Positions 6,327 through 36,316 of a stretch of DNA of 64,000 nt are shown here, in pieces. Within the stretch, counting starts at the first letter, position 1. Every line of letters starts with the position of its first letter. Position numbers and translations under genes: made by a program. Source of the stretch: Rhodocytophaga aerolata (GTDB lineage Bacteria > Bacteroidota > Bacteroidia > Cytophagales > 172606-1); NCBI RefSeq assembly GCF_030503435.1, contig NZ_JAUKPO010000030.1, positions 1 to 64,000 of the forward strand, given 5' to 3'. The notes under the pieces were generated by a model. That model worked only from the letters and a program-made list of their open reading frames with translations, ran no database searches and was not told the origin of the DNA.

Positions 6327-8870
6327 CTATACTTCCGTCCGAAGAATCTCCAGTGGTGGTCGGTTTAATACGCCACGGCTATTAAGCATGCCAATCAGTA
6401 CAGTTAATCCAGTTACTACAACTAGTACAACCATCAGTGGAGTAAGTACTGGCTGGAAAGGTACTTCAAACACAAATAGGGCTAATAACCAGCTGCTAAT
6501 AAGTGATAATAAAATGCCCGATAACGTAGCCAAAGCTCCCAGAAAAAGATATTCGATAATGGAAATTTGGATGATTTGCTTGCTATTGGCGCCTAGTGTC
6601 CGGAGCAGCACACTTTCTTGTATCCGCTGATATTTGCTGATAATGACAGAACTGCTCAATACGATTAATCCGGTGATAATGCTAAATAAAGCCATAAACT
6701 GGATAACAAATGATACCTTATTCAAGATTTCATCAATAGTGCGCAGAATCAAACCCAGGTCAATAGCCGATACATTGGGATAGGCCTGTACTAATTCCCG
6801 CTGAAACTTAGCCGACTGGTCGGATGACTTTACTTTGGTAACCAGCACATGAAACTGAGGCGCTTCTTCCAATACTCCATTTGGAAACACAATAAGAAAA
6901 TTGGTTTGTACCCGGTTCCAGTCTATTTCCCGGGTGCTGCCAACATAGGTTTTAATAGGAGAACCTTGTACGTTAAAGACGAGTTCATCGCCTATTTTCA
7001 ACTTCATCCGCTCCAGATACCGGTCTTCTACAGAAACGAAAATGCTGTCGGAAGGTGAATTAAGTTTGCGCAACTGGCCCTGCTGCAATTTTTCAGACGT
7101 AATCAGCTTATCGCGGTAGGTAACCCGGTATTCCCGGGTGAGTGCCCAGTCAGGAATTTTGGCAGAGGTATCTTTTTGAATAGCTTCTACCGTACGTCCA
7201 TTAATTTGAGAAAGGCGCATAGTAACAATAGGAGCTTCCTGTAAAATAGGAATGCCTGAATCTTTAGCCAGTTTCACTACTGCTTCTTTCTGATTGGTTT
7301 GAATATCGAAAAGCACCATATTTGGCTGGTTACCGCTGCCTGAAAGTGTTACCTGGTCTAACAGCAGGTTTTGGGATACATATAAAGTAGAAATCAGAAA
7401 TGTACCCAGGCCAATGGCAATAATCAGAATCAGGGTTTGGTTTTGCGGGCGGTATAAATTGGCCAGGCTTTGCCGCCAGACATAACTCCAGGAAACCGGG
7501 AAAAAGCGGCGTACCAGATACATAATTAATATGCCCATGCCGGTTAGTAAGAGAAAAGCCACACAAATACCCACGGTAAATCCTAAAGCCTGCCGCCAGT
7601 CTCTGATCTGCAAATAAGCAAACCCTCCAACAAACAAAATAATAAGCCCATAAATTAACCACCTGGCCGGATCTTTCGCCGAAGTATCTTCCTCAAAAGA
7701 AGCCCGCAGGGTACGCAAGGGAGAGATACGCCGGATAGATAATAAAGGCAGCAAAGCAAATAATACGGCCATCGTTAAGCCAATTCCTACACCCTGCCCA
7801 ATGGCTGCCCAGGCAATGGTAACCGCTACATCTACCGGAAGGAATTCTCCCAATATTTCAGGCAGCACAAATTGAATAGCCGACCCCAACAAAGCCCCCA
7901 TCAGCGCACCAGTAAAGCCCATCAGAAAAGTTTGAATAAGAAATATATAAAAGGTTTGCCAGCCCCCGGCGCCCAGGCAACGCAATACAGCTACAGAAGC
8001 CAGTTTTTCTTTCACATATAAATGAATGGCACTAGCCACCCCTACACAACCCAACAACAGGGCAATAAAGCCTACTAAATTCAAAAAACGGGTCATGTTA
8101 GCAAATGTGCGGCCTATTTCCTCTTTTCGTTCTTCTACTGTATCTGAGTTGATACCTTCTTTATCTAATCTGGGTTCCAACGTTTCTGCAAGCTTTTCAA
8201 CATCGGTGCCAGGCAGCTGGTAATAAAACTTATAGTTGATCCGGCTGCCCCGTTGTACCAAGCCAGTACCATCTAGATAATTGAGGGGAATATATACCGT
8301 TGGCGCTACAGTCGTTGAAACTGCTGACTGACCGGGCATTTTTAAAATTCTGCCTATAATATAGAAAGTAGTTTCGCCAATTTTTACTGAATCGCCGGGT
8401 TCAATGTTGAACTGGGTCATCAGCACATCGTCTACCAAGGCTTTTTTGCCGCCTTGCTTAAAGGTGCTAAAAGCATCGGCAGGAATGGTTTCTACTTCTC
8501 CAAAATAGGGAAAGTTTCCTTGTAAAGCTTTTACCTGAATAAGCCGGGTTCCGCTGTTTTTCGGAAAAAATACCATGGATGCAAACCCCCGCTCTTCTGA
8601 CCTTTCCTGACCTATAGAGTCTATCAATTGCTGTGCTTCCGGAGAAACAGGCTTATTTGTGCTTAAGGCCAGGTCGGCTCCTAATAGTTCTTTCGCCTGG
8701 TCATCTATACTTTTTTCAAGGTTGATGGCAAATGAGTTAATGGCTACCAAGGCGGCTATACCCAGCATAATGGAAGACATAAACAGGAGCAGACGTTGCC
8801 GGCTTTTGCGGCTGTCGCGCCAGGCCATTTGCCATAGCCAGGGATTAAAAGGAGAGGAGGAGGAAGACAT
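6327..8870 (-). CDS. FtsX-like ABC transporter permease (YbbP-type)
   Basis: This 847-residue inner-membrane protein has the layout of the large YbbP-type permeases. There is one N-terminal transmembrane helix (about residues 28-48), a MacB/FtsX-type periplasmic domain, a central group of helices (about 260-480), a second periplasmic domain, and three C-terminal helices in an FtsX domain (about 720-835). The gene for its ATPase starts upstream in the same orientation (stop at 8892, 21 bases before this start), so they form an operon. In Escherichia coli the YbbAP pair is thought to act with TesA in extracting or exporting hydrophobic molecules. The divergent TesA-like gene here repeats that arrangement. 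Confidence 0.92.
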   Translation of the reverse strand: MSSSSSPFNPWLWQMAWRDSRKSRQRLLLFMSSIMLGIAALVAINSFAINLEKSIDDQAKELLGADLALSTNKPVSPEAQQLIDSIGQERSEERGFASMVFFPKNSGTRLIQVKALQGNFPYFGEVETIPADAFSTFKQGGKKALVDDVLMTQFNIEPGDSVKIGETTFYIIGRILKMPGQSAVSTTVAPTVYIPLNYLDGTGLVQRGSRINYKFYYQLPGTDVEKLAETLEPRLDKEGINSDTVEERKEEIGRTFANMTRFLNLVGFIALLLGCVGVASAIHLYVKEKLASVAVLRCLGAGGWQTFYIFLIQTFLMGFTGALMGALLGSAIQFVLPEILGEFLPVDVAVTIAWAAIGQGVGIGLTMAVLFALLPLLSIRRISPLRTLRASFEEDTSAKDPARWLIYGLIILFVGGFAYLQIRDWRQALGFTVGICVAFLLLTGMGILIMYLVRRFFPVSWSYVWRQSLANLYRPQNQTLILIIAIGLGTFLISTLYVSQNLLLDQVTLSGSGNQPNMVLFDIQTNQKEAVVKLAKDSGIPILQEAPIVTMRLSQINGRTVEAIQKDTSAKIPDWALTREYRVTYRDKLITSEKLQQGQLRKLNSPSDSIFVSVEDRYLERMKLKIGDELVFNVQGSPIKTYVGSTREIDWNRVQTNFLIVFPNGVLEEAPQFHVLVTKVKSSDQSAKFQRELVQAYPNVSAIDLGLILRTIDEILNKVSFVIQFMALFSIITGLIVLSSSVIISKYQRIQESVLLRTLGANSKQIIQISIIEYLFLGALATLSGILLSLISSWLLALFVFEVPFQPVLTPLMVVLVVVTGLTVLIGMLNSRGVLNRPPLEILRTEV

Positions 8871-26300: not shown

Positions 26301-28016
26301 ATGGCAAACTTTACAATAGATGCAGTAAAAAAAATGACCTATGATGCCATTGTCATCGGGTCGGGTATCAGCGGGGGCTGGGCGGCTAAAGAACTTTCAG
26401 AAAAAGGTCTGAAAACCCTGGTGCTGGAAAGAGGCCGCAATGTAGAGCATATAAAAGATTACCCGACAGCTAACATGCACCCCTGGGAGTTCGAACACCG
26501 GGGTCAGGTTCCACTGGAACTCCGGAAGCAAAACCCTTTAATTGGTCAGAAAAGAGGCTTGTTCAGTGAAGCTACCATGCATTTTGTAGTCAAAGATGCT
26601 GAACATCCCTATGTGCAGGATAAACCCTTCGACTGGACAAGGGGCTATCAGGTAGGCGGGAAATCCCTGTTGTGGGCCCGGCAAACGCAGCGATGGAGCG
26701 ACCTTGATTTTGAAGGCCCGGCCAGGGATGGGTTTGCGGTAGACTGGCCTATCCGCTACAAAGATATGGCTCCCTGGTATAGTCATGTAGAGAAATTTGC
26801 CGGAATTTCAGGAAATAAAGATGGGTTGCCTCAATTACCTGATGGTGAATTTTTGCCTGCTACTGAATTGAATTGTGTAGAAACGTATTTTCAGGGACAA
26901 CTTGCCAAACATTACAAAGACCGTCAACTCATTCAGGGACGTTGTGCCCATATTACCAAGCCGGAGCCTATTCATTTTGAACAGGGGCGGGCAAAGTGCA
27001 TGCACCGGACATTGTGTTCCAGGGGTTGTCCGTTAGGGGGCTATTTCAGCAGCAATGCCTCTACCTTACCCTGGGCTGCCAAAACAGGCAACATGACCTT
27101 ACAGCCCCATGCGGTGGTGCATTCGATTATATACGATGAGAAGAAAGGCAAAGCCAGTGGTGTCCGGGTAATAGATGCCAACACTAAACAAATGAGTGAG
27201 TATTATGCACGTATCATCTTTGTTAATGCTTCAGCCCTGAATACGAACCTTATTCTGTTAAACTCTACTTCTTCCCGCTTTCCGCAAGGATTAGGCAACG
27301 ATAATGGGTTATTAGGGAAGCATATTGCCTGGCATAACTACCGGGCCAGAATAACTGCCCAATACGACGGTTACCAGGATACTACTACCGACGGACGCAC
27401 ACCTAATCATAGTTATTTTCCCAGATTCCGCAATGTACATAAACAGGAGACTGATTTTCTACGCGGCTATGCAGCTGGTTTCTCTGCCGGGCGGGGCACC
27501 AACCAGAACCGCGAGGGGATAGGAGTTTCCTTAAAAGAAAGCCTGTTAAATCCCACACTTGGCCCTTGGAACGTCAGTTCGTGGATGATGGGAGAGACTA
27601 TACCCAAAGAAACCAACTTTGTAAGCCTGGATGCCAGCCAGAAAGATCCCTATGGCATTCCACTTTTGCATATCTCGGTCGACTGGGAAGAAAATGACGA
27701 CAAAATGGTAAAAGATTATCAGGAACAGTTCACTGAGATGTTCACCAAAGCCGGATTTACCAACATCAAAACCAGTGACTCTAAACATGCGCCCGGAGCC
27801 GATATTCATGAAATGGGTGGCGTACGCATGGGCACAGATCCCAGAACATCCCTTCTGGACAAATGGAACGCCCTTCATGCCTGCAAAAATGTATTTGTTA
27901 CCGATGGAGCGTGCATGACATCTACCTCTACACAGAATCCCTCACTAACTTATATGGCTCTTACGGCCAGAGCAGCGGACTATGCGGTGAGTGAACTAAA
28001 AAAGAAAAACCTCTGA
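26301..28016 (+). CDS. GMC-family FAD-dependent oxidoreductase (sugar/alcohol dehydrogenase type)
   Basis: This 571-residue flavoprotein has an N-terminal FAD-binding Rossmann motif (AIVIGSGISGGWAAKELSEKG, split here for length: GSGISGGWAAK and LVLERG). The GMC signature is near residue 120 (GGKSLLWAR). The C-terminal active-site region has HEMGGVRMG and TQNPSLTYMALTARAADYAV. It lacks a signal of its own and is probably carried out by the Tat-type small subunit encoded just upstream. Such periplasmic enzymes oxidise sugars, polyols or keto-gluconates and pass electrons to a cytochrome or quinone; no cytochrome gene is adjacent. The substrate is unknown. Confidence 0.92.
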   Translation: MANFTIDAVKKMTYDAIVIGSGISGGWAAKELSEKGLKTLVLERGRNVEHIKDYPTANMHPWEFEHRGQVPLELRKQNPLIGQKRGLFSEATMHFVVKDAEHPYVQDKPFDWTRGYQVGGKSLLWARQTQRWSDLDFEGPARDGFAVDWPIRYKDMAPWYSHVEKFAGISGNKDGLPQLPDGEFLPATELNCVETYFQGQLAKHYKDRQLIQGRCAHITKPEPIHFEQGRAKCMHRTLCSRGCPLGGYFSSNASTLPWAAKTGNMTLQPHAVVHSIIYDEKKGKASGVRVIDANTKQMSEYYARIIFVNASALNTNLILLNSTSSRFPQGLGNDNGLLGKHIAWHNYRARITAQYDGYQDTTTDGRTPNHSYFPRFRNVHKQETDFLRGYAAGFSAGRGTNQNREGIGVSLKESLLNPTLGPWNVSSWMMGETIPKETNFVSLDASQKDPYGIPLLHISVDWEENDDKMVKDYQEQFTEMFTKAGFTNIKTSDSKHAPGADIHEMGGVRMGTDPRTSLLDKWNALHACKNVFVTDGACMTSTSTQNPSLTYMALTARAADYAVSELKKKNL

Positions 28017-28120
28017 GTAAGTTGGGTGTAAATGTATTTTGTTGTTAGTGGCAGGTTAGGTATATTAAACGTAATTGCTTGTAAAATCTATAACATTTGT
28101 CTTGCTAACGTATATTTCTC

Positions 28121-29410
28121 ATGTATCCGAAAATCAGGCTGCTGAAAGCAATTGTTTGTTTACTACTGAGCAGTTGTACATTTTTTTCGCAAGGGCAAGA
28201 TCTGGCAGCCGATAATCCATTTATGTATTATGAACAGGCCATGCAGGCCTATGCTGCTAAAAACTATTCACTGTATGCTGAAAATCTAAGCAAGGTTGTA
28301 GACCCGCAGAGCAAGCAACCAGCTTTGCTCTATCAGTTGGCTGGTGCTTACACATTAACTGGAAAACATAAAGAAGCATCAACCATCCTGAATAAGTTAG
28401 CAGCTATGGGGCTAGCTTATCCTATTTCCACCGATCCCGATTTTGAAAGCTTTAGAAAGTCAGCCTTGTTTGCCCAGGCAAAAAAAGCGTTCGATAAAAA
28501 TGTGTTTTCCAAATATTCCAGTACCCAAGCGTTTGTTATCTCTGAAAAAGACCTGGTTCTGGAAGGAATCACTTATGATGCTCAACAAGAACAGTGGTTT
28601 GTCGGGAGCATCTACAAACGGAAAATTATCCGGCTGGATGCACAGGGAAAAGCAAGTGATTTTACAACTGAAGGGCAAGAGGGCTTATTGGGTGTATTAG
28701 GTATGAAAGTAGATGTGGCTAACCGGGTACTCTGGGTTTGCAATGCTGCTCTTGGCGGAGATACCAGTGGAAATTCAGCCATATTCAAGTATGACCTCAC
28801 TAACCAAAAGCTATTGAAGAAATACCTGCTGCCGGGTGGCCAGCAAAAGCAACTGCTAAACGACCTGGTAATTCTGAAAAATGGAGATGTGTATGCCACC
28901 AATAGTGAAGCAGGAGCGGTGTATAAAATTCCTAAAGCTACCGATCAGCTGGAAATCTTTATCAAACCCGGAATATTTATTTACCCCAATGGCATAGCCC
29001 TGTCGCCCGACGGCAGTAAATTATATATTGCTCACTTTGCCGGCATTTCGGTTGCCGACCTGAGTAAGGGCACTTCCGCTGAAATGACTCACCCGGAAAA
29101 TACAACCATTGCTGGTATTGATGGGTTATCTGTATATGATAACTCATTAATCGGGGTTCAGAATGGAGTAATGCCTCAGCGAATAATACAAATGCACCTC
29201 AATCCAACGTATAATGGCCTTACTAAAGTAGACGTTCTGGAAGCAAACCATCCCCTTTTTGAGAAGATACCAACCACTGGGGTTGTTGTTGGCAATGCAT
29301 TTTATTTTATAGCCAACAGCCAGCTCAGAAGTATGGATGAACAGGGAAACATTCTCCCATTGGATCAGTTACAGGAAACAGTGATCTTGAAGCTAACTCT
29401 CAAAAAATAA
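28121..29410 (+). CDS. Secreted TPR plus SMP-30/gluconolactonase-like beta-propeller protein
   Basis: This 429-residue protein has a signal peptide (about residues 1-25, ending near FSQGQ). A short TPR-like helical part (about 30-125: YEQAMQAYAAKNYSLYAENL and LYQLAGAYTLTGKHKEA) is followed by a six-bladed beta-propeller domain of the SMP-30/LRE type (from about residue 140; for example YATNSEAGAVYKI and PNGIALSPDGSKLYIAH). It may be a lactonase or a binding protein. It follows the GMC gene by 104 bases and could take the lactone product of a sugar dehydrogenase, which is inference only. Confidence 0.8.
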   Translation: MYPKIRLLKAIVCLLLSSCTFFSQGQDLAADNPFMYYEQAMQAYAAKNYSLYAENLSKVVDPQSKQPALLYQLAGAYTLTGKHKEASTILNKLAAMGLAYPISTDPDFESFRKSALFAQAKKAFDKNVFSKYSSTQAFVISEKDLVLEGITYDAQQEQWFVGSIYKRKIIRLDAQGKASDFTTEGQEGLLGVLGMKVDVANRVLWVCNAALGGDTSGNSAIFKYDLTNQKLLKKYLLPGGQQKQLLNDLVILKNGDVYATNSEAGAVYKIPKATDQLEIFIKPGIFIYPNGIALSPDGSKLYIAHFAGISVADLSKGTSAEMTHPENTTIAGIDGLSVYDNSLIGVQNGVMPQRIIQMHLNPTYNGLTKVDVLEANHPLFEKIPTTGVVVGNAFYFIANSQLRSMDEQGNILPLDQLQETVILKLTLKK

Positions 29411-29600
29411 CACGTATTTTATATTAGCTACTTCAACTGTAACTCTTCTGGCTGTGGGCATGGCTTATCCTACTTTTTCTGTTACAGGAGGAGTCCATTA
29501 CATTTTCTTAAATTTTTTAGAATTTCTCTGTAACCATCTTCTAAAACTGAGGTTTCCCATGCAGTTATTTCTTTTGGAGATTCTAAAAATTACGCTACCC

Positions 29601-30746
29601 ATGAACTTACCATCTATATCTTCTAACGTCAGGATAGTTTCTTTCCTGGTTTCTGTTTTTACAGGTGCATTTTTTATACTAACCCTGCCTGCCACAAGCA
29701 TGGGATTATTGACAGCTGTAAATTTACCCTATGCTGCCAGATGGGATAATGCTGAACAGCGTTCCAAACAGACTAAATCCATTACCCAAGATATGACAAA
29801 GGGTTACTGGCATAGCCGGGAAACCAGAGATAAGTATTGTATCCGGTTTGGTGAAAATGAAAATGAGCACAATTGGGGTATAACGGAGTGTTTCGATAAA
29901 AATGCTTTTGAAAAAAAGCAAACCGATGTATTTCAACTAACCCGGCAAACGGGAACTCTTACGCTGACTGGAAAGCTCTATCAGGCAGAAGGAGATGGCA
30001 CATACGAATTTGTAGCCAATGAAGCATTTTTAACATACCTGACTGAGCAAGGAATTACTAGCCGCGATGAAAACTTTATGTTTCACCTCTACCTGGCTGA
30101 TATGCAAAAGCAATACATTGCGTTCCTTAAAACCCACTACACCCAAATTGAAGGAAACCGGTTAATGGAACTAGCCATACATGAGGTTTCCCAGAAAAAG
30201 TATCAGGAGTATATAGGGTTATTTGAAAAATACAGTGGTAAAAAGCCTTCCATACAAGAAGTGATCGAAGCAAAAATTCATGGAATTGACCAGGCGTATG
30301 TAGAGGAAATTCAAGCCAATGGCTATACAGGACTGGACATGAAAAAAATGATGGAAGCCAAAATACACGGAGTAAATGCAGATTTTATCAATTCTTTGAA
30401 GCAAGAAGGTTTTACTAATCTTAGTATGCAGGAGGTGCTTTCTGCGAAAATACATGGGGTAGACCCTTCATACATTGGGCAAATGAGAAAGCTGGGCTTT
30501 ACCAATCTCACTCTGGAAAAACTCAGTGAAGCAAAAATTCATGGGGTAAATGCCAGCTATATTCACGATCTGGAAACGGCCGGCTTCTCCAATCTCCCCA
30601 TCAATAAGTTAATAGAAGCCAAAATCCATGGGGTAAATGCAGATTTTATTAGTGAAGCCAAAAGCAAAGGATACAACCTGGGCACTATTGGAGACTATAT
30701 TTCCTTGAAAATACATGGCATGGCCAGAAATACCGGTAGAGAGTAG
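29601..30746 (+). CDS. Exported protein with five 29-residue KIHG repeats
   Basis: The ATG at 29601 gives a 381-residue product with a signal peptide or anchor (about residues 8-38); an earlier ATG at 29460 would add an unlikely hydrophobic leader. A non-repeat N-terminal part of about 185 residues is followed by five tandem 29-residue repeats (codons starting at 30270, 30357, 30444, 30531 and 30618) plus a partial sixth. Each opens with AKIHGV/I followed by DPSYI-type and GFTNL-type segments. Similar KIHGV repeats are known beside or within BlaR1/M56-type sensor proteins of Bacteroidota and other phyla, where their role is unclear. No M56 protease or BlaI repressor gene lies near. Confidence 0.8.
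   Translation: MNLPSISSNVRIVSFLVSVFTGAFFILTLPATSMGLLTAVNLPYAARWDNAEQRSKQTKSITQDMTKGYWHSRETRDKYCIRFGENENEHNWGITECFDKNAFEKKQTDVFQLTRQTGTLTLTGKLYQAEGDGTYEFVANEAFLTYLTEQGITSRDENFMFHLYLADMQKQYIAFLKTHYTQIEGNRLMELAIHEVSQKKYQEYIGLFEKYSGKKPSIQEVIEAKIHGIDQAYVEEIQANGYTGLDMKKMMEAKIHGVNADFINSLKQEGFTNLSMQEVLSAKIHGVDPSYIGQMRKLGFTNLTLEKLSEAKIHGVNASYIHDLETAGFSNLPINKLIEAKIHGVNADFISEAKSKGYNLGTIGDYISLKIHGMARNTGRE
30270..30722 (+). repeat. Five 87-bp tandem coding repeats
   Basis: In-frame 87-base units start at 30270, 30357, 30444, 30531 and 30618, with a partial unit at 30705. The units are clearly homologous in protein (KIHG motif at the same place each time) but diverged in DNA, so they are old duplications rather than recent slippage. 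Confidence 0.9.
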
Positions 30747-30764
30747 CGTTAAACATAGGGTATA

Positions 30765-31410
30765 TCAGCAAAATACTGACGACCATTGCTTGTTAATGGC
30801 TATTGTTTTGCCAGTCCTGAACAAAGCTTGTGAAAGAATCACTGATAGGTAGTTCTTTACCACTTTTAACTGTGCTTTCCGGTTAAGAATGGTCACAACT
30901 TTATCCATACGGACGATGTAACTTCGGTGTATCCGTTTGAATTTGTTAGAAGGCAGTTTCTCCAATATCTTTTTCATAGATGGTAATGTAAGAATAGGTT
31001 TTGTACCTTCCAGGTGGATACGGATGTAATCTTCTAAACTTTCAATGAACTCTATCTCTTTAAGCACAATTTTAACAAGCTTGTATTCGGAGTTTACATA
31101 CAGACTTTCATTGAAAATATCTTTGGGTGTTTTTTTATAGTCCAGATAATCTAGAGCCTTTTGAATAGCTTTAGTAAACCGGTCAAAGTCCATGGGTTTG
31201 AGCAGGTAGTCTAAGGCTTCTAATTCAAATCCCTCATAGGCAAATTTCTTGTGAGCCGTAGTAAAAATAATGATAGGTTTTTTTTAAGGTACGCACCAGA
31301 TCAATGCCGGAGATATCTGGCATTTGAATATCTACAAATAATATATCTACCGATGTCTGACGTAAAAACTCAGAGGCAGAAATGGCATCGTCGAATACCG
31401 CAACCAGGAT
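30765..31410 (-). pseudogene. Broken LytTR response regulator (5' truncated and frameshifted)
   Basis: Two reading frames together make one regulator of the LytR/AlgR type. The 5' piece (upstream end near 31410) encodes LVAVFDDAISASEFLRQTSV and the phospho-acceptor strand ILFVDIQMPDISGIDLVRTLKK. It then runs into a run of eight A (complement of T at 31278-31285) and loses frame. Removing one A restores PIIIFTTAHKKFAYEGFEL and joins smoothly to the 3' frame, which carries LKPMDFDRF and a LytTR DNA-binding domain (FKRIHRSYIVRMDKV). The first roughly 37 residues of a normal receiver, with the acidic DD pair, are missing. Both lesions suggest a dead gene; the frameshift alone could be a sequencing error. 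Confidence 0.8.
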
Positions 31411-32127
31411 AGAGTAAAACAATCCGGCGGAAAAATTTTTCTGGCAGGCCAGCGGGGAACTACCCAAACTCCCGGCTACCAACGGTATAGCACCTTCAAT
31501 TTTGAAGACTATTTTAATAAGCATAAAACTGCTTTTGGCAGCCTCTATGCAGTAAATGAAGTAACAATAGCAGGTTTGCAAGAGGTCAAATTAGTTGTAG
31601 AGGAAGCATCGTATATAAGTATCCTTCCCATTACAGGCCAGGTGAATGTTATCGAGCCGGATGCTACTGTCACTAAGTTGGATGTGGGTGAAATACTTAT
31701 TTTGCCAGTGGCTTCCCAGGTTACCTTGCCTCTGACTAATCCCTATGAAGCAGAAGAGATAACGTTTCTGCATGTAAGTATAAAAACCAATGAAGCAGCT
31801 GTATCAGGCCATGGGCAGGTTGTTGCTTTTGATTTAGCTTCTCTGGAGAATCAGCTGTTTTCGCTTAATTCTGTATGCAATACTACTGCTTATCCATTTG
31901 CTATCAGCCTGGGCAGGTTTGATGGAAGAAAAGAAGCTTTCTATCCCTTAAAAAATCAGCAATCCACTTTGTTTGCTTTTGTAGTTAACGGAGCTTTTGA
32001 GCTAGAGGGAAGATTGTTACATGCCAAAGATGGTTTAGCTTTATGGAACACTCCCCAGATAGAATTAGAAGCCTTAAGTAACCAGGCCATCATCGTTACT
32101 GTAGAGTTAATGAATGAGCAGAGGTAG
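31411..32127 (+). pseudogene. 5'-truncated pirin/YhaK-like protein gene
   Basis: The open frame runs back from 32127 to a TAA at about 31363, but homology to pirin-like (YhaK-type) proteins begins only near 31426-31434 with GGKIFLAGQRGT. It continues through YSTFNFEDYFNKHKTAFGSLYAVNEVTIAG and a cupin half with LEVGEILILP-like segments to a normal C-terminus. No ATG or GTG start occurs in this frame ahead of the conserved part, and the TTG at 31576 would cut the protein through its first cupin. The gene has lost its start codon and probably a few N-terminal codons. It lies head to head with the broken response regulator, with the join at about 31409-31431. Confidence 0.7.
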
Positions 32128-32146
32128 CAAAGCGTAACAGTAAAAT

Positions 32147-32175
32147 GCAAGAGTGGCCTTAGTAACCACTCTTGC
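32147..32175. terminator. Bidirectional terminator between pirin-like and peptidase-like genes
   Basis: A perfect 10-base-pair stem (GCAAGAGTGG/CCACTCTTGC) with a 9-base loop stands between two convergent genes. A TTTT lies shortly after it on both strands. Confidence 0.6.
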
Positions 32176-32193
32176 GTACTTTTAAAGCAGCTG

Positions 32194-33636
32194 CTAATAG
32201 ATATACAAACGGGTGGCAGTATTCATGTCTTTCCACCATATCCATACGTTATCGTTGTCGTTCTCAGACCAGCCCGGATAGCAGTAGGCCCATGTCCAAT
32301 CGGTGTTATCAGTCCATTGTGACCAGCCCAGGCCAATATAGAAGTGTGAATTTGCTCCAATATGTACCGGGGTATAATTATTGGCGATGCCTTCGGTTAC
32401 AATGTTTGCCAGGTTTACATTGCAGCCGGCACTATTACACCACTGATAGCGGTAATTGTATCCATAGCCCTTCGCACCAGAGTAGAATACTCCTTTGTAG
32501 CCATTGCTCCAGTAAGTCCAGCCGGTACCACTACCACAATATGTACCACTCACCGACCGTGTATACATTTGTACGGGATCGACCACATTGCGTCTGGCAA
32601 CTGTGTTGCGGTAGCGGGGACTTGTTTCGCCAGTAGAAGTGGTAGGAATTAATGAGGCTTTTCCGCGGTTGGCATCCCACCAGCCATAAATACCGGCCCA
32701 GGCATTGTTATTACAGCCCGACCAGCAAGGATATGAGTTAACACTTGTATAGGCTGGAATCTGCGTATAGTAGGTTCTTAGCCCAGGCACCCACCGGTAT
32801 TGATAATACCCCTCTGTGCGCTGGTTGGCACCTGTACGTTTCAAGGCTTCCCCATGGCCGTTAGCTGGAAAAATACGTCTTTTCATCTCCAGGGCAGCTA
32901 TGTTTCTTTTGGGTGAATAATAGTGCTGGGCATACAACTGTTTCAACGACTCATAATCGGCAATGGCCATATATTCCACACCTTCGGTGGCTTCTACAGC
33001 ACTTTTTCTGGCGCTTTTGTCGCCTGTTTTCGTGTCTTCACTGTTGCTGTCTTCCAGATCCCGGTCCTGGTTGGCTATGTAGGTGGGCATGCGTCCATAA
33101 TCAGCAACCTTGCGTCCGTTTTCTTCCATCGCATAGTAGCTTACCCCAAAGCGGTATATTTTATTCGCTTGATTCGCTTCGGTTAGCATATGTGAGGAAT
33201 AAGGGATACCCTGCGAAAAGTTTACCAAGGGATAATCTTTGTCTGTGGCACTGATCAGTATCCAGCCTTTAGGTGTCTTATTATCTTCACTAAACCAGAT
33301 TTCGTAATATGCTACGCCTTCTACACCATAGGCATAAATGGGCTGGATGCGGGCAGGTTTTTTGTTTCTGAATTCATCCGTTTGCCCGTTAATGGCCATA
33401 AATTCATTGGTTACCGAGATTACTTTTGAGGCGTTGGCGGCTTCATCTGTGTGTTGGGCAAAATAGGCTTCGCTCAGTGCTTCAATGGTACTGGTTTTAC
33501 CTCCCAGCAACGAACCTTCATTTGTGGGTGTTTGCTCGTTTTCGGTTGGGGTTTTGGTCAGTTTATCCTCTTTGTTGCAAGAGAACTGGGTACATGCCAC
33601 TAGCAGCAGCATGCCGAATAATGCTGATTTTTTCAT
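32194..33636 (-). CDS. Trp/Tyr-rich lipoprotein resembling a papain-fold cysteine peptidase
   Basis: This 480-residue protein starts with a lipoprotein signal (VACTQFSCNKEDK; Cys near residue 20). An N-terminal propeptide-like part (EAYFAQHTDEAANASKVIS and GWILISATDKDYPLVNFS) resembles the inhibitory prodomain of C10 (streptopain-type) peptidases. The C-terminal half has a candidate nucleophile in YPCWSGCNNNAWAGIYGWWD and a candidate catalytic His in GANSHFYIGLGW, in the order expected of papain-fold enzymes. It is unusually rich in Trp, Tyr and Cys (WCNSAGCN, YCGSGTGW, CYPGW). Secreted surface protease is the best guess; activity is unproven. Confidence 0.7.
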   Translation of the reverse strand: MKKSALFGMLLLVACTQFSCNKEDKLTKTPTENEQTPTNEGSLLGGKTSTIEALSEAYFAQHTDEAANASKVISVTNEFMAINGQTDEFRNKKPARIQPIYAYGVEGVAYYEIWFSEDNKTPKGWILISATDKDYPLVNFSQGIPYSSHMLTEANQANKIYRFGVSYYAMEENGRKVADYGRMPTYIANQDRDLEDSNSEDTKTGDKSARKSAVEATEGVEYMAIADYESLKQLYAQHYYSPKRNIAALEMKRRIFPANGHGEALKRTGANQRTEGYYQYRWVPGLRTYYTQIPAYTSVNSYPCWSGCNNNAWAGIYGWWDANRGKASLIPTTSTGETSPRYRNTVARRNVVDPVQMYTRSVSGTYCGSGTGWTYWSNGYKGVFYSGAKGYGYNYRYQWCNSAGCNVNLANIVTEGIANNYTPVHIGANSHFYIGLGWSQWTDNTDWTWAYCYPGWSENDNDNVWIWWKDMNTATRLYIY

Positions 33637-34105
33637 TTTTTCAGGATTAGAGTGTTAAGTAGCAGAATAGGTATGCGGAGCAGGAGAGAAAAGAGACCTG
33701 AGTGTATCAGAAGTTTGTTGTTGTTGAGGTAGTGTATAGGTCAGGCCATTGAGCCGCGGCAGGCAGGGAATCTCCGGAGCATTTCCCTGATCTGTGTGCA
33801 CTCCTTATTCTTATTCTCTGCAGTTTACCATTCCATTATTCATTGATAATGAAAGCTCCGGCAGGTAAACATGCTGCAGCAGAAAAAATTAACAGTACGT
33901 GCACTATAGGAAACCCTGCTCTCTACAAAAGTGAAGGAATTGGGTGTGTGTCTACCCAGATGGCATTAACTGGATATCCGTAATCTTGTAACCTGAATAT
34001 TTAGAGCCTTAGCCGCAACCAGGTGTTTACTTGGATACCTAATTTTTATAACTTGCCTGTCTTTTTGCATGCGCCAATGTTTGTGTTCACCTAATCTTTA
34101 TTTTT
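33637..34105. other. Intergenic region, nothing recognised except a hairpin
   Basis: This stretch between two divergent genes has no ORF of coding character. A hairpin at 33764-33789 (CAGGGAA/TTCCCTG around the palindrome CTCCGGAG) lies about 130 bases upstream of the minus-strand lipoprotein gene. Its role is unknown. Both flanking promoters should lie here, but I found no convincing consensus. Confidence 0.4.
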
Positions 34106-34972
34106 ATGAAAAAATGCTTGTATCTGGTTTTTCTTATCCTGAATGTAGTTATTGGGCTTCAGCAGGCCAATAGTCAGGCTATGCCCACTCTCGGAGTCGT
34201 AGCTTCTATCAGCAACGATAGTTTATTATATGCTACCGGGTTCAGGATGATTGGCGAAACCGTAGGAAAAATGTTATCTCCCTCTTTATCGGAGGCAGCA
34301 TTTGAAGAGAACCTTCAACAAATAAAACAAACTAAATGCAAGCTCTACCTCTGTAATGTTCTTTTTCCGGGCAGTATAAAAATTACCGGACCTCAGGTAG
34401 ATGAGCAACGGATACTTAATTATTTGGATACGGTTTTTTACCGGGCAAAACGGGCAAATGTACCGCTGATTGTATTGGGTAGCGGAGGTTCCAGGAGATT
34501 ACCGGAGGGGTATAATAAAGAGCAGGCAAAAAAGGAGTTCGCCAGCCTCTGCCGGAAAATGGCGCAGGTTGCAAAAAAATACAACAGAACCATTGCCATT
34601 GAAAGCCTGAATAGTACAGAAACAAACTTTCTGAATACGCTGGAAGAAGCAGCCGAAATAGTAAAAATGGTAAACCACCCCAACTTCCGCCTGAATGCAG
34701 ATATCTACCACATGATGAAGGAAAATGAACCGCCCCAACACATTCTGGATGCCCGCAAATACATAGTGTATGTAGAGATTGCCGAAAAAGAAAAACGTAC
34801 GTTTCCGGGAGTAGTTGGGGAAGATTTTAGACCCTATTTTCAAGCACTGAAAACCATTGGCTACAAAGGGCCTATCGTAATTGAAGGGAGAGTAGGCGAC
34901 ATTAGCCAGGAAGCACCGGCGGCCTTTGCCTACCTAACCCAACAACTGAAGGAAGTGTATGCTACTAAATAA
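34106..34972 (+). CDS. Secreted sugar phosphate isomerase/epimerase-like TIM-barrel protein
   Basis: This 288-residue protein has a signal peptide (about residues 1-25, ending near ANSQA) and an AP-endonuclease-2/xylose isomerase-like TIM barrel. Metal-site segments are AIESLNSTETNF, FRLNADIYHMM, IVYVEIAEKE and PIVIEGR, matching the Glu/Asp/His/Glu pattern of the family. Related exported proteins in Bacteroidota act on sugars or inositol-type compounds, but the substrate here cannot be told. It is a single gene. Confidence 0.82.
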   Translation: MKKCLYLVFLILNVVIGLQQANSQAMPTLGVVASISNDSLLYATGFRMIGETVGKMLSPSLSEAAFEENLQQIKQTKCKLYLCNVLFPGSIKITGPQVDEQRILNYLDTVFYRAKRANVPLIVLGSGGSRRLPEGYNKEQAKKEFASLCRKMAQVAKKYNRTIAIESLNSTETNFLNTLEEAAEIVKMVNHPNFRLNADIYHMMKENEPPQHILDARKYIVYVEIAEKEKRTFPGVVGEDFRPYFQALKTIGYKGPIVIEGRVGDISQEAPAAFAYLTQQLKEVYATK

Positions 34973-34994
34973 AAATAGTAGCTAACAGCTATAG

Positions 34995-35618
34995 TTACTC
35001 TTCATGGTTTATTCTGGCTTGTACTTTCAGGTGGATATCCACCTCTGGAAGAATATATCTGTTACCCAGTGAAGGATCGGCTGCGTGCGTCATCCCCCAC
35101 TTTGTGCGGTCAAGAGTAAATAAAGATTCAACCGTTAGCCGGTTATCCGCTAAAGTAATGTTAGCCGGGAAAGAAAGCGGGTGTGTCTGCCCCAGCAACG
35201 TGAAATTACCACTTACCATCTGATTGGCACCTGCTATTGCTCCATCGGCAGGGTTGGGTAAAGGTGTTATTTCTGTTAATGTAAAAGTAGCTTCCGGATA
35301 AAGGGCTATATTAAAAAAATCTTTGCTTTTTAAATGTTTCAGCAAAACAGGCTTTATGGTTTTGGGTAGGTCAATGTTGCGGATAGATTCGATAGGGATA
35401 CGAAATGTGCCGCCCACAACCTGTCCGTCCACTACGTGTATGCCCTGGCTTGTCACAGCAAATGTTCCATGGTGCGATACTTTCGGGCTGGCACCTTTCC
35501 ATTCTATTACTGAACTATCGGGAATTAATGTATAAGAATAGGGCTGAAGAATAACCGGCTGATAACTGGGACTGAATATAGTCCAGGCCAAAGCAAAAGC
35601 AATAAGTAATTTAAACAT
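34995..35618 (-). CDS. YceI family lipid-binding protein
   Basis: The ATG at 35618 gives a 207-residue exported protein with a signal peptide (about residues 1-16). It carries a YceI domain: SSVIEWKGASPKVSHHGTF, LLKHLKSKDFFNIALYPEATF, VSGNFTLLGQTHPLSFPAN and DRTKWGM are typical. YceI is a lipocalin-like barrel in the periplasm that binds polyisoprenoids such as quinones. An earlier in-frame ATG at 35744 would bury the signal peptide. The gene is convergent with the TIM-barrel gene. Confidence 0.92.
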   Translation of the reverse strand: MFKLLIAFALAWTIFSPSYQPVILQPYSYTLIPDSSVIEWKGASPKVSHHGTFAVTSQGIHVVDGQVVGGTFRIPIESIRNIDLPKTIKPVLLKHLKSKDFFNIALYPEATFTLTEITPLPNPADGAIAGANQMVSGNFTLLGQTHPLSFPANITLADNRLTVESLFTLDRTKWGMTHAADPSLGNRYILPEVDIHLKVQARINHEE

Positions 35619-36316
35619 GGTATTAAAAAGAGAATAGAATTGGTAAAAGTATAGGGCAGCCTGGCTGGTTGTCGCTTTTCTACTGTCTGCACTTGGTTTA
35701 TGGAAGAGAGCGGCATAAGTAACCTTTTTAAGGGAATATTTCAACCTGCTTTATGGGAAAACCTTATCGAGTATCGGTTTTATGAAGGTGCTGTTAAAAT
35801 ATGCATATTTTGCCTGAAAGTAGTATCAAAAATACTGAGATTTGCGTATAGACCGGGAAGCATATATATTCGCTTTCCTGGTTAAGCCATAAAATATTTT
35901 CTGTTAATTTGTTATACCTGAAAATTTTGTTTGCTCACGTAAAGATGTGTTACTAATTTTTAGGGCTTTTTAAACCGTTTATACAAGTTATAGTCAACAT
36001 TTTTACAAATTATCGTTAAATAGGCTAGACCAATTCCGGAGTAGCAGAAAAAGGGATGCCTTTACTTTACCGTTTAGGAAGAACTTGGCGTACTCTAATT
36101 CCAATTTCTAACTGTACGGACTTTTTAGTGTATAAGAGAACCAAAGAACTGGTAAATTGAATGGCAGCAAGGACAAATCACTTATAAAAACTATGCTTTG
36201 ATATCGGGCATCCTTGTTCTTTATTCTTCCTGTATTCTCCTAACACACCTCAGGTCAGTGTAGCTAGCCGATTGAAAAACAGCTTCTGGTCAAAGCATTT
36301 AGAAGAATTTTGCATT
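35619..36316. other. 700-base intergenic region, nothing recognised
   Basis: This AT-rich stretch lies between divergent genes. A 61-codon frame at 35700-35885 lacks any recognisable feature and was not called. No RNA gene or clear promoter was identified. Its length is unusual for this compact window, and it could hold regulatory elements for the PAS kinase or a decayed gene. Confidence 0.35.

Follow-up and report, generated by a model that had tools for sequence, protein, structure and literature searches.

LytS/LytTR (AgrA/LytR-type) two-component systems employ a response regulator with a receiver and a LytTR domain, and in the relatives of the regulator described here a kinase gene (His_kinase, PF06580) adjoins it. 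Members of the pirin/quercetin 2,3-dioxygenase family are characterized by ~230 conserved residues and a C-terminal cupin domain. A gene of each kind is found at one head-to-head join, located at 31405-31435 of the window (the whole 64,000-nucleotide stretch of DNA analysed, from contig C126 of the Rhodocytophaga aerolata genome), where a minus-strand LytTR regulator meets a plus-strand pirin-like gene. In contrast to the described two-component systems, the regulator is a pseudogene and its kinase is gone; in contrast to other family members, the pirin-like gene has no start codon and is 44-47% identical to its closest relatives. Like ordinary bacterial pseudogenes, which form by deletion and frameshift, the scar exhibits truncation, frameshifts, and lost partner genes. 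However, it differs from them in that a single join cost two genes their 5′ ends, owing to their common membership in one cluster. With a probability of about 0.7, the scar is the trace of a deletion inside this conserved cluster, such that the lineage once had a LytS/LytTR pair beside a dioxygenase-DUF171-pirin operon and lost ~3-4 kb. “DUF171” is a label coined in this analysis for a family-less 171-residue protein.

The regulator can be aligned in three tblastn pieces (62-77% identity) with its closest intact relative, the 237-aa regulator of locus L081. Residues 33-75 of the latter correspond to 31407-31279 (77% identity), residues 75-213 to 31283-30867, and residues 210-233 to 30879-30808. 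Pfam assigns Response_reg (1.2e-8) to the N-terminal piece and LytTR (3.6e-14) to the C-terminal piece. The receiver domain is incomplete: the segment of the phospho-acceptor aspartate, FVDIQMPD, is retained, while the DD acidic pair is missing and the conserved lysine segment lies in another frame. The C-terminal LytTR DNA-binding domain is present, with its last ~25 residues frameshifted. An earlier note on this DNA had estimated the N-terminal loss at ~37 residues including the acidic pocket; the acidic pair is indeed lost, but according to the tblastn alignment 32 residues are missing. The same note took the regulator to be intact from LVAVFDDAIS onward, which is incorrect, since the frame is broken at an A8 run and again close to the C-terminus (Table 1). 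With two frameshifts, the regulator is dead independently of the join. On the plus strand, 29454-30746 of the window encode a protein of 430 residues in which AKIHGV(N/D) units recur and which has neither a Pfam nor an NCBIfam match.

Table 1. Features at the head-to-head join, in window coordinates
Feature	Coordinates	Strand	Description
LytTR response regulator pseudogene	30808..31407	-	lacks residues 1-32, two frameshifts; tblastn with the L081 regulator, three pieces
Frameshift 2 of regulator	30867..30880	-	net -1 nt near the C-terminus; conserved end SGKELPISDSF read in the other frame
Frameshift 1 of regulator	31278..31285	-	A8 run (T8 on +), net -2 or +1 nt; frame changes there
Junction	31408..31413	.	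six bases between the end of regulator homology (31407) and the start of pirin homology (31414)
Pirin/quercetinase-like gene	31414..32127	+	whole but for its start codon (GTA at 31414); full-length alignment, Pirin_C_2

The pirin-like gene is almost complete. It is 44-47% identical over its full length to homologues in the same-genus comparison genome (G001) and in G035, and both domain and structure searches place it in the pirin family (Pirin_C_2, 5.6e-9; full-length profile matches to PDB entries 6uts, 1.7e-11, and YhhW, 1tq5, 2e-11). The earlier note had the gene begin inside its conserved N-terminus, at KIFLAGQRGT. The homology in fact extends upstream to the first base of the gene in Table 1 (window RVKQSGGKIFLAGQRG, G001 MIKQIPGKIYLSEGRG, L081 MKQTPGKIYLADQRG), where VKQSGGKIFL aligns with MIKQIPGKIYL of G001 or MKQTPGKIYL of L081, i.e., from the first or second codon. 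Thus, only the start codon is missing. Its absence had been recognized correctly, and there is no in-frame ATG, GTG, or TTG before 31576 (TTG), leaving the gene without a usable start. The pirin loss may be confined to the start codon, and could also stem from a small lesion in that codon itself, beside the deletion end. The frame is free of stops for its 241 codons, and of the 36 columns showing no variation among ten compared homologues it preserves 35, suggesting that the start was lost recently or that the gene is still used. In the pirin tree, the protein sits on a long branch (1.04).

This preservation also bears on the proposal that the short frames are functional, with a free LytTR domain translated from an ATG (30765-31193) and the pirin from a rare codon (ATT, ATC) or from the TTG at 31576. 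Both the open pirin frame and the existence of the ATG-started LytTR frame are consistent with it. However, the tail of the LytTR frame is frameshifted and lacks the conserved SGKELPISDS end, such short forms were not found in any relative, and the pirin has no usable start, making this proposal very improbable.

The two homologies are separated by six bases, in agreement with the claim that both losses meet within ~25 bases, and the description of two 5′-truncated genes lying head to head is confirmed with the corrections given above. A search for junction repeats revealed no direct repeat there. The regulator (31212-31226) and the pirin (32062-32076) do share a perfect 15-nt inverted repeat, which was rejected as a cause, as both proteins encode ELEAL at these positions; this shared coding is probably a coincidence.

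The kinase, dioxygenase, and DUF171 genes are missing not only from the join but from the genome, a 9.07 Mb draft of 202 contigs that is rated 100% complete. In G001, the genes preceding pirin encode a dioxygenase (PF00775) and DUF171, a protein of 171 residues without a Pfam match. DUF171 has no match anywhere in the window's genome, and orthologues of the dioxygenase (best match 39%) and of the LytS-type kinase (best match 34%, whereas a different genus in the family retains it at 56-57%) are likewise absent from it; the kinase query was the one accompanying G001's related regulator. No convincing remnant of the three genes was seen within 28000-36000, such that the five-gene cluster is reduced to pirin and the remnant of the regulator. 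The possible removal of a LytS-type kinase gene, as previously suggested, is therefore well supported.

These absences also weigh against a misassembly of two unrelated loci, which had been regarded as the main alternative. Although the fragmented draft leaves room for such an error, the missing genes occur nowhere else in a genome rated as complete, which renders it unlikely; in addition, the joined genes share one cluster in relatives, and the regulator carries two more lesions away from the join. An assembly error is thus highly improbable.

In relatives, the two genes are parts of one cluster, which is intact in many of them, Hymenobacter included; their proximity is thus no accident. The comparison covered 65 pirin loci from the same taxonomic order, of which 56 have an intradiol-dioxygenase gene immediately upstream of pirin on the same strand and 37 have DUF171 upstream of pirin. 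A LytTR regulator, nearly always with its LytS-type kinase, is found within 6.5 kb of pirin in 29 of the 65 (binomial p ~1e-8 at an assumed, generous background of 15%, ignoring relatedness). The survey was designed after the neighbourhoods in G001 and Hymenobacter had been seen, so these counts describe an association and are not a blind test. A single contig scan of the genomes gave only five Hymenobacter loci. None of the five proteins compared with NCBIfam matched a family there, and a search of locus L013 for the Bacteroidota -7 motif gave no signal (3 matches vs 4.9 expected).

DUF171 (~170 residues, no Pfam or NCBIfam match) is located between dioxygenase and pirin in its 37 loci, which include G001, L081, and L089. 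A homologue with an in-frame TAA is present in genome G005 (C19:198367-198729, locus L045), where the surrounding 13 kb (L140) hold no dioxygenase or pirin match. A parallel scar, which favours the deletion reading, is seen at ~8554-8712 of locus L114 (G325): beside a dioxygenase-pirin pair, a related regulator is reduced to short pieces that are joined to one another across a large internal deletion, with no kinase match there.

The position of the LytTR pair relative to pirin varies. A kinase-regulator tandem is upstream in 20 loci, the pair is convergent downstream in 6, downstream on the same strand in 4, and divergent upstream in 1 (two loci are counted twice in this tally). The divergent locus, L130, has an intact regulator (-3983..-3255) and kinase (-3238..-2168) opposite the dioxygenase (-873..-124) and pirin. 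An intact regulator, kinase, and pirin block, which the earlier note had proposed to look for in relatives, thus exists in the very orientation it envisaged. However, the L130 regulator is of another kind (~40% identity), and its gene order is the only such case among the 65 loci.

The closest kin of the window's regulator are arranged differently. In the regulator tree, it is sister (99/96 support) to the regulators of L081 and L089, both of them linked to the cluster; in these two loci, pirin and regulator converge ~30-75 bases apart beside dioxygenase-DUF171-pirin. An order-wide search located further close relatives ~1 kb upstream of pirin, in tandem order, in five genomes of genus g53. 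Orthology of the window's regulator to G001 7168010 was dropped once cluster-linked regulators entered the tree; G001's unlinked regulator instead groups (96/78) with a remnant on another contig of the window's genome. That remnant (G000 C134:45702-46001; L053:7703-8017) is a second N-terminally truncated LytTR regulator, which starts at about residue 126 and has no receiver domain, and the genome's other strong regulator matches all lie in long open frames. Gene order is scrambled between G001 and the window's genome despite their belonging to the same genus; no intact ancestor of the locus was found there, and the original flanks are not comparable.

The convergent order of L081 and L089 offers a different route to the join. 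Starting from dioxygenase, DUF171, and pirin facing regulator and kinase, the pirin-regulator segment would have been circularised or tandemly duplicated and its outer parts lost, joining the 5′ part of the regulator to the pirin start, so that the scar would mark the joined segment ends. The sister loci have exactly this starting order, and circularly permuting the segment yields the gene order of the window as well as the loss at both 5′ ends. However, an additional event would have to open the segment where the two 3′ ends meet, no trace of a second copy was seen within 28000-36000, and L130 provides an example of the divergent order. This route is therefore unlikely, although less so than a misassembly.

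According to the favoured deletion inside the cluster, the ancestral order would most simply have been back to back, with kinase and then regulator transcribed in one direction and dioxygenase, DUF171, and pirin in the other. From this arrangement, we infer a single event, along with its mechanism, in which one deletion of ~3-4 kb would have removed codons 1-32 of the regulator and the start codon of pirin together with everything in between: the kinase, the promoter region separating the units, the dioxygenase, and DUF171. In L130, ~3.3 kb lie between regulator codon 33 and the start of pirin, a distance that would be nearer 4 kb with DUF171. Deprived of kinase and promoter, the regulator would have gained its two frameshifts, whether earlier than the deletion or later, and the genes would presumably no longer be expressed; the pirin frame, being still open, would point to a recent loss or to reading from a rare start. 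The earlier proposal of a single deletion between divergent genes is hence upheld as to the loss of material and the existence of a divergent order in L130, but the orders in the closest relatives (convergent in L081 and L089, tandem in g53) speak against it as it stood and require one prior rearrangement to the divergent order. As refined here, the deletion adds two lost genes, the dioxygenase and DUF171, to the kinase proposed before.

As an instance of gene decay the scar is ordinary; of greater interest is its by-product, the conserved cluster. The LytS-LytTR-dioxygenase-DUF171-pirin cluster seems to be undescribed as far as the open-licence literature goes, in which the papers naming both “LytTR” and “pirin”, once each, are by title and abstract unrelated to a cluster of this kind. 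The pirin operon is adjoined by regulators from at least three LytTR subfamilies in four gene orders, suggesting repeated recruitment. Tentatively, the LytS/LytTR pair, intradiol dioxygenase, DUF171, and pirin could thus constitute an undescribed conserved module, to which the pair was recruited repeatedly and from which it was lost again in some lineages. What appear to be chance neighbours in the window are the ends of a cluster whose conservation spans families of the order, and this linkage, by neighbourhood alone, predicts that the LytTR pair would control the dioxygenase and the pirin-like protein.
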